IMG/VR virus record: IMGVR_UViG_3300003894_000003 | Coordinates: 1-28,487 of that record | Source: a virus | Length of the DNA stretch: 28,487 nucleotides | Direction: 5' to 3' (one strand) | In this document: piece after piece, positions 18,728 to 28,487 of the stretch | Layout of the letters: every line of letters begins with the position of its first letter | Position numbering within the stretch: the stretch's first letter is position 1 | Position numbers and translations under genes: made by a program | Notes under the pieces: model-generated | Seen by the model: the letters and a program-made list of their open reading frames with translations, nothing else | What the model was told of the DNA's origin: nothing | Database searches by the model: none

Positions 18728-18742
18728 TGTCCTAATTTTGTC
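18728..18742. repeat. attP arm-type repeat, right copy
   Basis: TGTCCTAATTTTGTC overlaps the last codons of the integrase gene and matches the copy at 18529-18543 except for one base. A shorter third copy of the ten-base half (TGTCCTAATT) starts at 18739, so this side carries two close repeats. Together with the left copy they flank the tRNA core like integrase arm sites. Confidence 0.55.
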
Positions 18743-19682
18743 CTAATTGTTCAATGTTATTTTTGACCATTTCTAACTGTTTAGTCGTATAATGAGCCGT
18801 CATTTTCTCCGATGTATGGCCAACCGCAACCTTAATATCTTGAGTCCCCAGACCAATATCATGCAAATGTGAGATGAATGAAGCCCGCAAATTCTTAATT
18901 GATCCATGAATATGATATTTTTTCAATTCTCTTTTTAAAAGTTTAGATGACCAATTTCTGCTGTTTTTGTTATCCATGATATTAATTATATTAAAATCAA
19001 GCTTGGAGTGCAGCGGAATCTGAACCGGGACATCTGACTTATCCCTTTCTAATTGAATCACACCATTTTTAACAGCGTTTTTTGAAAGCGTCCCCGCATC
19101 ACCAGAGTCCAGTCCGGTATAATAGCATAACATCCAAAATCTCCGGTGTTTTAATTCTATTTTTTCATTGGAAAATATCTCAAATAATATGTCTTTTGGA
19201 ATCGCCCGAAAACGGCGTCTTTCCTTCGCTATCGGTAGCTGGGCTGACTTCATAGGATTGCGGTCGATATACCCGCAAGAAACGGCAAATTGAAGCATCT
19301 GACGGATCGGTTTAAGATAGTTTAATACAGTATTCGGAGCATGGCCACTTTTTAAGCCACCAATATATTGATTTAGGTCGCGGGATTGAATTGATGAAAC
19401 TGGCCTGTCCTGGTATTTATTTACAAATTTTTGAATCTTTGGAAGATTGTTTTGAAACCAAGAATCGGATTTATCATCTTTGATGAACTGCATCCACTCG
19501 ATTGACAATTCATGGATGGTTCGGATCGCGGGTGAATATATACCGAAGGCTTCTAATTCATATTTTTCATCAAGTTTTGTTTTAATCTGTTTGGCGATTG
19601 CCAGATTTTCTGTTTTTAAACTAAAAAATATATATCCACGACGATAATACCATTTTTTATCTCTTTTATATAATACACTCAC
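18732..19682 (-). CDS. int: Tyrosine site-specific integrase (atypical catalytic site)
   Basis: The 316-residue protein should insert and, with a helper, excise the phage at tRNA-Asp. It has an N-terminal arm-binding-like part, a core-binding SAM-like domain (about 55-140) and a catalytic domain (about 155-316). Recognisable residues are K215 (RDKSDVPVQIPL), R266 (KNLRASF), H289 (VAVGHTSEKM) and nucleophile Y298 (AHYTTKQ). The usual Arg-I in TGLRxGE is replaced: here the segment is TGLDSGDAGTL with D192. The usual HxLR histidine is K263. The gene converges on the late operon and ends next to attP. The family is certain, activity less so because of the missing Arg-I. Confidence 0.88.
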   Translation of the reverse strand: MSVLYKRDKKWYYRRGYIFFSLKTENLAIAKQIKTKLDEKYELEAFGIYSPAIRTIHELSIEWMQFIKDDKSDSWFQNNLPKIQKFVNKYQDRPVSSIQSRDLNQYIGGLKSGHAPNTVLNYLKPIRQMLQFAVSCGYIDRNPMKSAQLPIAKERRRFRAIPKDILFEIFSNEKIELKHRRFWMLCYYTGLDSGDAGTLSKNAVKNGVIQLERDKSDVPVQIPLHSKLDFNIINIMDNKNSRNWSSKLLKRELKKYHIHGSIKNLRASFISHLHDIGLGTQDIKVAVGHTSEKMTAHYTTKQLEMVKNNIEQLGQN

Positions 19683-19703
19683 GCCGCACCTTATCGCAGA
19701 AGA

Positions 19704-20462
19704 TCACGTGCAGTCGGGACAATCTTTTTCAATACACTCTATTAAAGCAAGATTGTACTGATTATCTACACTCCCGAATGATTTAGACCTACATCGCACT
19801 TCGCAATATTTCCCATTTTTCTTCAGGACTCTGCATTTACTTTCACTGTCAGAGTTTTTCATAATTGCACATCCATCCGCATCGTCGGGATGAATGAAGT
19901 TTGTCAATAATTTGCCCATCATATCTAATTTTTCATAACCGAATTGTCGCAGAAATTCATTATTGACACTTCTTATGATATTATTGCCTCTCAGTACAGC
20001 AAGCGGGTGGTGCATATTATCAAACACATAGTCCCATTGTCGGGATTTGATATTAAGATTCTCAGCAATCTCTTTAAAGGTTGAACTCGCATCCAATTCC
20101 CGTGCGAAGGATTCAACGCTTCCCTGCGATGATTCGTATGCCCTGACCTGATTCGTGAGTTCTATGTTTAATGCTTTGAGCGATTCAATTTCGTCGAGGA
20201 GATATTTTTGAAGTCTATTGTCCATCGGCGCGTCACCTTTCTTTTCTATTCCTGTATCAAGTTTGATTTCCTCGTTGTTTAACCATTTAATTTTTTGCTT
20301 CTCTAATTCCGCCAGTTTATTCACGTGATGTTTCTGGGGGCGATTCTCCCCAGATTTCCATTTATAGACTGCACCGATAGAAACTCCAAGCTTATCGGCA
20401 ATAGTCTTGACCGAAAAATTCGTTTTTCGCAACAAATCTTGAAAATAATCATTGTAAATCAT
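19704..20462 (-). CDS. Lysogeny regulator: HTH plus PAS-domain repressor
   Basis: This 252-residue protein is the likely repressor. An N-terminal HTH_3/Cro-type motif covers roughly residues 5-45 (FSVKTIADKLGVSIGAVYKW). A coiled coil follows at about 80-110 (LLDEIESLKALNIELTNQV). A PAS domain covers about 143-245 (WDYVFDNMHHPLAVLRGNNI, FLRQFGYEKLDMMGKLLTNF, FIHPDDADG, VLKKNGKYCEVRC). There is no LexA/CI-type Ser-Lys peptidase. Seven cysteines lie in the PAS part and the C-terminus ends CPDC-T. I chose the ATG at 20462 over one at 20489 because a TATAAT at 20491-20496 puts the transcription start inside the longer N-terminus. It is divergent from the early operon. Confidence 0.75.
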   Translation of the reverse strand: MIYNDYFQDLLRKTNFSVKTIADKLGVSIGAVYKWKSGENRPQKHHVNKLAELEKQKIKWLNNEEIKLDTGIEKKGDAPMDNRLQKYLLDEIESLKALNIELTNQVRAYESSQGSVESFARELDASSTFKEIAENLNIKSRQWDYVFDNMHHPLAVLRGNNIIRSVNNEFLRQFGYEKLDMMGKLLTNFIHPDDADGCAIMKNSDSESKCRVLKKNGKYCEVRCRSKSFGSVDNQYNLALIECIEKDCPDCT

Positions 20463-20489
20463 GGTGTAATATAAGGCAAAATATTTCAT

Positions 20490-20576
20490 TATTATACATC
20501 ATTATGATATAAATGTTTGTATTTAAATTATATTATTGTATATTTGGGTCGTAATATAGATATAGAAAAAGGAAAT
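20490..20576. promoter_or_regulatory. Divergent lysogeny/early promoter-operator region
   Basis: This AT-rich gap separates the repressor gene from the rightward early genes. For the minus strand, TATAAT lies at 20496-20491 and the transcript would start near 20484. Next to it is the near-palindrome ATCAT-T-ATGAT at 20498-20508, a good candidate operator. For the plus strand only weak promoter matches are visible: TTGTAT at 20536-20541 and TAGATAT-like sequence near 20557. A ribosome site AAAGGAA precedes the first early gene at 20577. Confidence 0.6.
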
Positions 20577-20750
20577 ATGACTGAAAAATTCTACAAACCG
20601 GATGAGGTGGCAAAAAAGTTAGGTGTTTCGACATCGACGGTTCGCTCCCTTATAGGAAGAAAAAAATTGAAATCATTGAGACTTGGTTTTCGCACTCAAA
20701 GAGTTTCGGAATCCGCCCTTAATCATTTCATTCATACAAATACAAAATGA
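20577..20750 (+). CDS. Small HTH DNA-binding protein, excisionase/Cro-like
   Basis: A 57-residue protein with a MerR/excisionase-type helix-turn-helix: FYKPDEVAKKLGVSTSTVRS followed by LIGRKKLKSLRLGFRTQRVS. This is the HTH_17 pattern typical of phage excisionases and small regulators. The ATG at 20577 has a clear AAAGGAA ribosome site; an upstream ATG at 20517 would lie in the promoter region and is unlikely. As the first gene of the early operon opposite the repressor, it may act as excisionase or anti-repressor; the sequence does not decide which. Confidence 0.75.
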   Translation: MTEKFYKPDEVAKKLGVSTSTVRSLIGRKKLKSLRLGFRTQRVSESALNHFIHTNTK

Positions 20751-24013: not shown

Positions 24014-24180
24014 GATGGATCTGTGATGAGCGCAGAAAACAATGGCTGCGGGCCATCCGCACAGGGGAATCAGAATGGACGATTCGCCAAAAGAAAAAAC
24101 TTTATTACAAAGCATTAGAAAAGGCATTGAAAAAGAAAAATGACACACGGCAGTCTATTCAGCGGCATCGGGGGGATTGA
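23992..24180 (+). CDS. Small basic helical protein before methyltransferase
   Basis: A 62-residue protein with strong ribosome site (GGAGGAAAC) before the ATG at 23992. It is basic and helical (RWICDERRKQWLRAIRTGES, RQKKKLYYKALEKALKKKND). It overlaps the methyltransferase start by 41 bases. No family recognised; a nucleic-acid-binding role is suggested by composition. Confidence 0.6.
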   Translation: MSEMQTLRWICDERRKQWLRAIRTGESEWTIRQKKKLYYKALEKALKKKNDTRQSIQRHRGD

Positions 24181-24901
24181 TCTTGGATTTGAGTGGGCCG
24201 GTATCGAAACCAAATGGCAAGTGGAAATTGATCCATATTGCCGGGAACTCTTGGGTAAACGCTTTCCCAATGCAAAACAATTTGAAGATGTTAAAACAGT
24301 TGGCAGCCACAATCTTGAAAAAGTGGATATTGTTTCCGGGGGATTCCCCTGCCAGGACATTTCCATCGCCGGGAAGGGGAAGGGATTAGCGGGTGAAAGG
24401 TCCGGTCTTTGGTCAGAGTTGCACCGCATTATTGGCGAGTTACGACCCCGATTTGCGTTCATTGAGAACGTCCCAATGCTCACTATTCGGGGGGGGGTCA
24501 GAGTTATTGCTGACCTTGCCGAAATCGGGTATGACGCAGAATGGACGACTTTATCAGCTTCAAATGTCGGTGCTAACCACAAAAGGGAAAGGCTCTGGAT
24601 TGTTGCCTACCCCGAGAGCCAGCGATTACAAACGAATAAAATTCAAGAAAGAGAGTTTGGAGAAGGTGATAAAAAAGAACCAAAACAATGGAAACAATTT
24701 CTCACTATCAATGCCGGAAATTATTACATGGAAAATTGGGAAGCCTTTGAATCTGAACTTTGTGGAACTGATTATGGGGTTCCCGGAGAACTGGACAGAC
24801 TTAAAGGCCTCGGTAACGCCGTCGTGCCGCATATCCCCTATATCATCGGAAAGCGACTCAAAGAATTATGCCAAAAAAACCAAGCCGAAAAACCCTCGTA
24901 A
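24140..24901 (+). CDS. DNA (cytosine-5) methyltransferase, orphan
   Basis: This 253-residue enzyme adds a methyl group to cytosine C5 in DNA. Motif I is FSGIGGIDLGFE (7-18), motif IV GGFPCQDIS with catalytic C71, motif VI ENV (109-111), motif VIII KRERLW (148-153) and motif X GLGNAVVP (223-230). The variable target region between VIII and IX is short (about 160-215), so the protein is near the lower size limit. No restriction gene is visible, so it probably protects phage DNA or marks it. A run of nine G at 24489-24497 lies between motifs VI and VIII, and a second open frame overlaps the 3' two thirds. The domain call is firm; the target sequence is unknown. Confidence 0.92.
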   Translation: MTHGSLFSGIGGIDLGFEWAGIETKWQVEIDPYCRELLGKRFPNAKQFEDVKTVGSHNLEKVDIVSGGFPCQDISIAGKGKGLAGERSGLWSELHRIIGELRPRFAFIENVPMLTIRGGVRVIADLAEIGYDAEWTTLSASNVGANHKRERLWIVAYPESQRLQTNKIQEREFGEGDKKEPKQWKQFLTINAGNYYMENWEAFESELCGTDYGVPGELDRLKGLGNAVVPHIPYIIGKRLKELCQKNQAEKPS

Positions 24902-25549: not shown

Positions 25550-26473
25550 ATGCGAGCCATCTGCCCTGACTGCGGATCGACCCATACCAAAAAGAAAGCA
25601 ATACGCCTAACCAAAAGCGGTGAATCCAGACGAAGGTGGGAATGTAAAGAGTGCGGTCGAAGATTCACAACCAACTGGCAGACGTTTGAAAACATCGACA
25701 AATCTCACCTCCCCCGGATACTATTATTCGATATTGAAACAACGCCTATGACCGTTCATGTGTGGGGACTGTATAAACAGCGCATCCCCCATACCAATAT
25801 CGTGAAAGAGTGGAATATTTTATCCTGGGCGGCGAAATGGCTCTATGATGATGAAATCCACAGTGATATTTTAACATCTGAAGAAGCGAAAGCCGGGGAT
25901 GATAAAAGGATCATAGAATCCATCTGGAAACTGTTGGATGAAGCCAATATCGTGATCGCTCATAATGGGGATCGCTTTGATCTGCGGAAATTAAATGCCC
26001 GCTTTATAGACAATCAGTTAGACCCGCCTTCTCCCTACAAGTCCATTGACACCTTAAAAGTGGCCCGCCGGGAGTTCGCTTTTACATCTTATAAACAGGA
26101 TTACCTTACCAAGCATTTCAAACTTGAGCAAAAATTGGACACGAATTTTCAACTCTGGCTTGATTGCATGGATGGGAAACAGGATGCTTTGGACAAGATG
26201 GCCGAATACAACCGCCACGATGTAATGGGATTGGAAGATGTCTATTTAAAACTCCGCCCCTATATCCACAACCATCCCAATCTGGGTGTATTGATGGATC
26301 AGGATGTTTGCCCGAATTGCGGCTCAGATCACTTAATCGAAACGGAAGCAGTCTATCTTACCACCGCCAATGTGTTCCCGGTCTTCAGATGCGGGGACTG
26401 TAAAACGCCTTACATCCGCCATAAGAAAAACAATAATCTGATTAAAACATCCTTCCGGAGTGTGGCCAGATGA
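25550..26473 (+). CDS. DEDDy-type 3'-5' exonuclease with N- and C-terminal zinc ribbons
   Basis: The 307-residue protein has three parts. An N-terminal zinc ribbon (C5, C8, C32, C35) sits beside a basic stretch, like InsA-type ribbons. A DnaQ/YprB-like exonuclease follows with Exo I FDIETTP (D61, E63), Exo II IAHNGDRFDL (D141 or D144) and Exo III YNRHD (Y220, D224). A C-terminal zinc ribbon has C254/C257 and C281/C284. It would degrade single-stranded DNA or RNA 3' to 5'. The ribbons at both ends are unusual for a simple exonuclease and may give it a nucleic-acid target. Confidence 0.85.
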   Translation: MRAICPDCGSTHTKKKAIRLTKSGESRRRWECKECGRRFTTNWQTFENIDKSHLPRILLFDIETTPMTVHVWGLYKQRIPHTNIVKEWNILSWAAKWLYDDEIHSDILTSEEAKAGDDKRIIESIWKLLDEANIVIAHNGDRFDLRKLNARFIDNQLDPPSPYKSIDTLKVARREFAFTSYKQDYLTKHFKLEQKLDTNFQLWLDCMDGKQDALDKMAEYNRHDVMGLEDVYLKLRPYIHNHPNLGVLMDQDVCPNCGSDHLIETEAVYLTTANVFPVFRCGDCKTPYIRHKKNNNLIKTSFRSVAR

Positions 26474-27678: not shown

Positions 27679-27799
27679 TGCAATCGTCAAAATAGCCGGG
27701 TCTATCCTTGTTATGGGCGTAGGCTTGGCCTTATTCGCCCTCGGATTGGTAGTATTAAGCGCATTTTGTACTGAAGTCTATACGAAATTATTTAAATGA
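27671..27799 (+). CDS. Small single-pass membrane protein
   Basis: A 42-residue ORF (MIDAIVKIAGSILVMGVGLA then LFALGLVVLSAF) has one long hydrophobic segment, so it should lie in the inner membrane. Its stop overlaps the ATG of the sigma-like protein (ATGA), supporting translation. Function unknown. Confidence 0.6.
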   Translation: MIDAIVKIAGSILVMGVGLALFALGLVVLSAFCTEVYTKLFK

Positions 27800-28101
27800 C
27801 TGAACAGGGCTACAACGAAGAAGCGGCAGAACTCGCACAAAAAGCACTTAAAAGATTAAACGTTTTTAAGTTGGCCGTAGAATATTTATATCACCGGAGT
27901 CAATACGATACAGATGAAATGAATTTCGCTAAAGCCACCGAGTCCGCATGGCCCGAACTATCTGATTTACAGAGAGATATAGTATATATGCACACCATCC
28001 AGGGCTTTTCTTTTACCGGGATAGCCGACTTGAAAGGTATATCCCCCCAAGCCGCATCACAAGCCTTCCACCGGGCTTGTAAGCACTTCCAGACCGTTTA
28101 A
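27796..28101 (+). CDS. Sigma-70 region-4-like late transcription regulator (ArpU-like)
   Basis: The 101-residue protein has an N-terminal helical part and a C-terminal helix-turn-helix at about 55-97 with LSDLQRDIVYMHTIQGFSFT, GIADLKGISPQAASQAFHRA: the signature of sigma-70 region 4, also seen in phage late regulators such as ArpU. It ends six bases before a TATAAT hexamer, and is the last early gene before packaging genes. It probably turns on late transcription by binding promoter DNA. The domain call is secure; the target promoter is inferred. Confidence 0.8.
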   Translation: MTEQGYNEEAAELAQKALKRLNVFKLAVEYLYHRSQYDTDEMNFAKATESAWPELSDLQRDIVYMHTIQGFSFTGIADLKGISPQAASQAFHRACKHFQTV

Positions 28102-28210: not shown

Positions 28211-28405
28211 ATGATACGATACGACTACAAATGCAATCATTGTCTGTGGGTATGGGAAACACTCCGCCCAATGGACGACGAATCAGACGAACAATGCCCG
28301 AAATGTGATTCATTCCGCACACGGAAAATAATTACAACGGCCAATTTTATTCTCAAAGGGGAGGGATTCCACGATACCGATTATGACCGATATGGCCCAA
28401 AATGA
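28211..28405 (+). CDS. FmdB-family zinc-ribbon protein
   Basis: This 64-residue protein is like FmdB-type small zinc ribbons: MIRYDYKCNHCLWVWETLRP at the N-terminus (C8, C11), EQCPKCDSFRTRKI (C29, C32), and the conserved ending FILKGEGFHDTDYDRYGPK. Family members are thought to bind nucleic acid or proteins as small regulators. It is the first gene of the late operon and overlaps the gene that crosses the circular join. No ribosome site is obvious close to the ATG. Confidence 0.8.
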   Translation: MIRYDYKCNHCLWVWETLRPMDDESDEQCPKCDSFRTRKIITTANFILKGEGFHDTDYDRYGPK

Positions 28406-28487
28406 AGGAATCGCGCTAAACGTGGAGTTGGTAGGTATCAAAAATCTCAAAACAACCCACACATGGCGATTGGAGTTCGATGTGTAC
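28383..28487 (+). CDS. Start of the gene that crosses the circular join (second copy)
   Basis: In the right-hand copy of the 100-base overlap, the frame begins at the ATG at 28383 (MTDMAQ) and is cut by the end of the window; it continues at bases 1-181 in the circular genome, where the full description is given. It overlaps the zinc-ribbon gene by 23 bases. The gene would be 61 residues from this start or 58 from the internal ATG. Confidence 0.75.
   Translation, partial: MTDMAQNEGIALNVELVGIKNLKTTHTWRLEFDVY
28388..28487. repeat. Terminal direct repeat (circular overlap), right copy
   Basis: These 100 bases match bases 1-100 exactly, so the sequence closes on itself. The unique genome is 28,387 bp if the overlap is removed. 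Confidence 0.95.

Follow-up and report, generated by a model that had tools for sequence, protein, structure and literature searches.

An uncultured phage encodes, next to its integrase, a regulator in which a Cro/CI-type HTH is followed by a PAS domain. We read this protein as a CI-type lysogeny repressor that dimerises and takes its input through the PAS domain, is not inactivated by self-cleavage, and carries an exchangeable tail; the probability of this reading as a whole is put at about 0.62. Phages with non-SOS sensory inputs and cellular XRE-PAS regulators are already known. What is new here is that the same slot holds, in sister phages, either the same HTH with another tail or an HTH-S24 protein.

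The window analysed is one whole IMG/VR virus record of 28,487 bases. Its two 100-base ends (1-100 and 28388-28487) are identical, which fits a complete genome, either circular or with terminal repeats, and the 28.5-kb record is therefore probably the entire phage genome. A terminase is clearly recognised, its nearest cultured counterparts being those of Vibrio phages at only about 41% identity; two other large structural genes found no match among cultured phages. The host was not found (scanning genomes with the integrase gave no match), and the window holds no tRNA. Elsewhere in the genome lie an apparently short C5 cytosine methyltransferase gene (24140-24901, matching only profile positions 2-186 of 324) with a NinG-like gene after it, an RNase H-like/exonuclease protein gene (25550-26473) with an N-terminal zinc-ribbon match and weak zinc-ribbon matches near its C-terminal end, and a gene whose small product contains a domain resembling sigma-70 region 4 (27796-28101), a possible late regulator.

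The HTH-PAS gene and its neighbourhood

Profile searches confirmed, at the level of sequence, that the protein has an N-terminal Cro/CI-type HTH and a C-terminal PAS domain, with a predicted helical linker in between, and its sequence bears out the seven cysteines and terminal CPDC that a sequence-only reading of this DNA had pointed out. The PAS part scores above the curated cut-off of PF00989 (30.2 bits against 22.6, profile positions 6-101 of 113) and above those of the NCBIfam profile TIGR00229 (31.8 against 22.9), PAS_3 (27.0 against 25.6) and PAS_8 (23.1 against 21.8). The HTH matches several phage repressor PHROGs at E values between 1e-6 and 1e-5 (phrog_8, 1e-6; phrog_2328, 7e-6) and, weakly, RstR and DicA; against HTH_3 it reaches 22.8 bits, just below the cut-off of 23. 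An alternative start is open at 20489 and would give a protein of 261 aa. AlphaFold2, run on the single sequence without an alignment, returned a fair HTH (helices at residues 2-13, 18-25, 29-36 and 44-63; pLDDT up to about 80) and a PAS part with pLDDT mostly below 50. Of the coiled coil proposed from the sequence, a long predicted helix stands, and this only in a low-confidence model.

The integrase gene lies 21 bp downstream in the same direction, and the excisionase-type gene begins 114 bases upstream on the opposite strand (Table 1). Lysogeny modules are usually arranged in this way, and the position, adjoining the integrase and divergent from an early or excisionase gene, is that of a lysogeny repressor. 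It supports the earlier description of the protein as a lysogeny regulator and makes it the probable master switch of the phage. No second CI-type gene was present among the window proteins scanned, which were part of the proteome; the HTH-PAS protein could itself be a second regulator. A search for operators in the divergent, AT-rich region resolved none and yielded only weak repeats, and promoter-like sites did not exceed chance expectation there. The failure to find an operator and the HTH_3 score just below cut-off count against the repressor reading, and the failure of structure prediction to confirm the PAS fold counts against the reading as a whole.

Table 1. Features of the lysogeny module in the window, and S24 repressors of sister phages.
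Feature	Coordinates	Strand	Basis or remark
Tyrosine integrase	18732..19682	-	PF00589 E 9.3e-9, phrog_1 E 6.4e-30
Exchanged C-terminal module	19687..20255	-	DNA comparison; homology to L002 not detectable, flanks 86-89% identical
HTH-PAS gene, probable repressor, 252 aa	19704..20462	-	ORF and profile matches
C-terminal CPDC, residues 248-251 (protein end CPDCT)	19710..19721	-	Sequence; L002 ends in CVC
PAS domain, residues 142-246	19725..20039	-	PF00989 E 4.8e-7, TIGR00229 E 1.3e-7
Long linker helix (predicted), possible coiled coil, residues 82-110	20133..20219	-	Low-confidence model
Block 88.8% identical to L002 (second HTH half and linker start)	20256..20379	-	DNA comparison
Cro/CI-type HTH, residues 13-52	20307..20426	-	HTH_3 E 9.7e-5, PHROG repressors, helices in model
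Divergent AT-rich intergenic putative switch region	20463..20576	.	One weak inverted repeat, 20504-20512 / 20528-20536
Small excisionase-type HTH protein, 57 aa, divergent	20577..20750	+	TIGR01764 E 5.1e-10 (above cut-off), PF12728 E 1.9e-8
S24 repressors of sister phages	L003:2-538; L004:5408-5998; L005:5417-5998; L017:4739-5329(-)		Ala at catalytic Lys

The repressor slot in sister phages

Scanning with the integrase identified six loci, with sister integrases 66-90% identical to that of the window; two of the contigs (L006 and L007) end inside the integrase. The closest, L002, has an integrase 90% identical to the window's; the part of its repressor that is known at the N-terminal end shares 62% identity with the window protein over 78 residues, the contig stopping at window position 20379. 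Past the block shared in the HTH and linker, DNA homology is lost, and it resumes at 19686 with 86.0% identity that continues through the integrase. Breakpoints this sharp point to a clean recombinational exchange of the C-terminal domain, and the pattern of homology is the trace expected from such an event.

The tail of the L002 repressor differs from the window PAS. It scores 19.0 bits against PAS_3, below the cut-off of 25.6 (E 0.0017), which is only suggestive of a PAS-like domain. When the tails were compared with each other, one sequence against one, just nine residues around an HPD motif aligned, a match that is not significant, and a scan with the L002 tail found nothing except L002 itself. 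The AlphaFold2 models of both PAS-type proteins were of poor quality.

In L003, L004 and L005, whose integrases are 77, 73 and 67% identical to the window's, the slot is occupied by an HTH-S24 repressor, and a repressor of the same kind adjoins a different integrase in L017. These proteins resemble the window repressor in slot, two-domain build and position before the integrase; they differ from it in HTH sequence, in the S24 fold and in a Lys to Ala change. The window protein shows no Peptidase_S24 among its Pfam matches listed up to E 1 and does not qualify as a self-cleaving LexA/CI repressor, a type marked by an S24 domain with a Ser-Lys dyad and an Ala-Gly cleavage site. Since sister phages carry S24 repressors in the same slot, the earlier proposal of a PAS domain in place of a peptidase holds as a real replacement.

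Cleavage of LexA and CI requires a Ser-Lys dyad. When the S24 domains were aligned with LexA, lambda CI and the repressor of Vibrio phage K242, the Ser and the Ala-Gly cleavage site proved to be kept, and the column of the catalytic Lys (VTVKRL in LexA, FTFKKL in CI, VMVKVL in K242) held Ala in all four sisters (KLVAEW, RLVAEW, RLIAEW and KLVAEW). A more distant relative, L124, has the Lys (VMIKRI). Because Ala replaces the catalytic Lys, the sisters have probably lost canonical autocleavage of the LexA type. The contrast with a RecA-cleaved repressor that had been drawn from the window sequence is thereby blunted, the nearest kin having S24 domains without the lysine. For the majority of prophages studied, DNA damage is the route to induction. 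With tails that are either PAS-like or S24 without the catalytic Lys in close relatives, the phages of this clade probably leave dormancy without the classic self-cleavage response to such damage.

The module as a whole appears to be missing from some relatives. In L018 the genes that flank it in the window sit close together, with small ORFs alone and no repressor between them, and the contig shows no integrase, S24 or PAS match. The 29.9-kb L020 contig likewise has none of these matches, its locus stopping before a complete flank. With neither integrase nor repressor between the flanking genes of L018, the lysogeny module looks like a cassette that is either present or absent. L018 and L020, close relatives, are possibly strictly lytic sisters.

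PAS domains appear to be rare in phage collections, as indicated by searches of limited sensitivity. At the sensitivities used, no relative of the full protein was found in phage records, plasmids, IMG/VR (L002 excepted) or GTDB (one genome per species), and a tblastn search of 50,697 phage records gave no match. The PAS domain of E. coli DosP, used as query, matched one phage record and, in PHROGs, two families that do not carry a regulator's name; for the window PAS part, no match stood among the best 25 listed. Scanning 49 related contigs with PF00989 brought up no additional case and missed the weak L002 match as well. Two candidate relatives, L009 and L010, were rejected, their matches being confined to the linker region and, in L009, lying inside a helicase-like protein.

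Proposed induction without self-cleavage

In the mechanism we propose, the HTH would bind operators within 20463-20576 and keep the rightward early genes silent; the dimer that operator binding would require would be formed by the PAS domain together with the linker helix. Induction would not proceed through RecA-stimulated self-cleavage; rather, the dimer or its hold on DNA would be weakened by an effect on the PAS domain, whether from a small ligand, from a small partner protein or from a change in redox state. The C-terminal module would be exchangeable, with lysogeny slot and integrase kept and the tail being PAS, another PAS-like domain or S24 without catalytic Lys. A bolder form of the proposal, in which a single protein is master repressor and sensor, its PAS domain itself detecting a host metabolite or the redox state, and the clade has given up self-cleavage and exchanges its sensor tail as a module, we advance as tentative.

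The PAS domain might instead dimerise the repressor and sense nothing, with induction falling to a phage or host antirepressor, possibly under LexA control. Dimerisation is common among PAS domains (PMC3406030, PMC8284805), L002 does not conserve the PAS sequence, and the non-cleavable Gifsy repressors are relieved by antirepressors (PMC3121763); moreover, the sister S24 domains appear non-catalytic, so that the whole clade may use an inducer acting in trans. However, no antirepressor gene was identified, and a purely dimerising tail would offer little reason for exchanging PAS, PAS-like and S24 modules. We regard this explanation as possible, though doubtful.

A narrower alternative makes the cysteine-rich PAS domain a redox sensor that binds Fe-S, heme, flavin or zinc or forms disulfides, oxidation inducing the prophage. 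All seven cysteines (198, 210, 220, 224, 243, 248 and 251) fall within the final 55 residues, far above the phage background: at the 0.96% Cys of other phage proteins, the binomial chance is about 1e-6 for this stretch, which was picked after inspection, and 0.01 across the whole protein. The L002 tail also ends in a Cys pair, CVC; yet these are its only two cysteines, other proteins of the window phage are also Cys-rich, and the evidence includes no cofactor motif. The redox or metabolic cue suggested by the sequence-only reading is not supported, with all cysteines but the C-terminal pair absent from L002, the only relative that has the same HTH, and the redox sensor seems improbable. Least probable is that the phage carries the gene to regulate its host's genes in an accessory role: cellular XRE-PAS regulators do exist (MltR/MmyB, PMC3406030), but the gene occupies the slot of the sisters' CI-like HTH-S24 repressors, with the integrase directly after it and an excisionase-type gene diverging from it.

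For a repressor with input through its PAS tail, the sister phages form a natural set in which the input domain differs amid nearly identical neighbouring DNA, and this would allow a direct test of how the induction cue depends on the sensor domain.

Comparison with known systems

The design had been called unusual. In the literature searched, no PAS-bearing phage master repressor was described; repressors without self-cleavage are not in themselves unusual, as Gifsy and N15 illustrate (PMC3121763, PMC10432266), and SOS-independent induction modules exist in phages (PMC10432266). The Gifsy prophage repressors GfoR and GtgR are non-cleavable, with known antirepressors, and share with the proposed system an induction that bypasses repressor self-cleavage; unlike the window protein, they have no reported PAS domain (PMC3121763). 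In MltR, an Xre-type HTH is followed by a PAS-related domain at the C-terminal end, and this domain contains a fatty-acid-like ligand (PMC3406030). MltR/MmyB-like proteins match the window protein in having an N-terminal Xre/HTH_3 domain and a C-terminal PAS-related, ligand-binding domain; they differ in being cellular and in having a larger PAS-like domain with extra helices (PMC3406030). The MmyB ligand-binding domain was not among the 25 Pfam matches listed for the window protein up to E 1.

VqmA of vibriophage VP882 joins PAS and HTH in DPO quorum sensing, its PAS domain being needed for dimerisation and DNA binding (PMC8284805). Its domains stand in the opposite order to those of the window protein (PAS N-terminal, HTH C-terminal), and it activates the antirepressor gene qtip rather than being the master repressor (PMC8284805), a role filled in VP882 by an autoproteolytic protein (PMC10432266). 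Like the window protein as proposed here, VqmA is a PAS-containing transcription factor that a phage encodes and that decides between lysis and lysogeny. By analogy with VqmA and MltR, the repressor would dimerise through its PAS tail, and this tail could receive an input.
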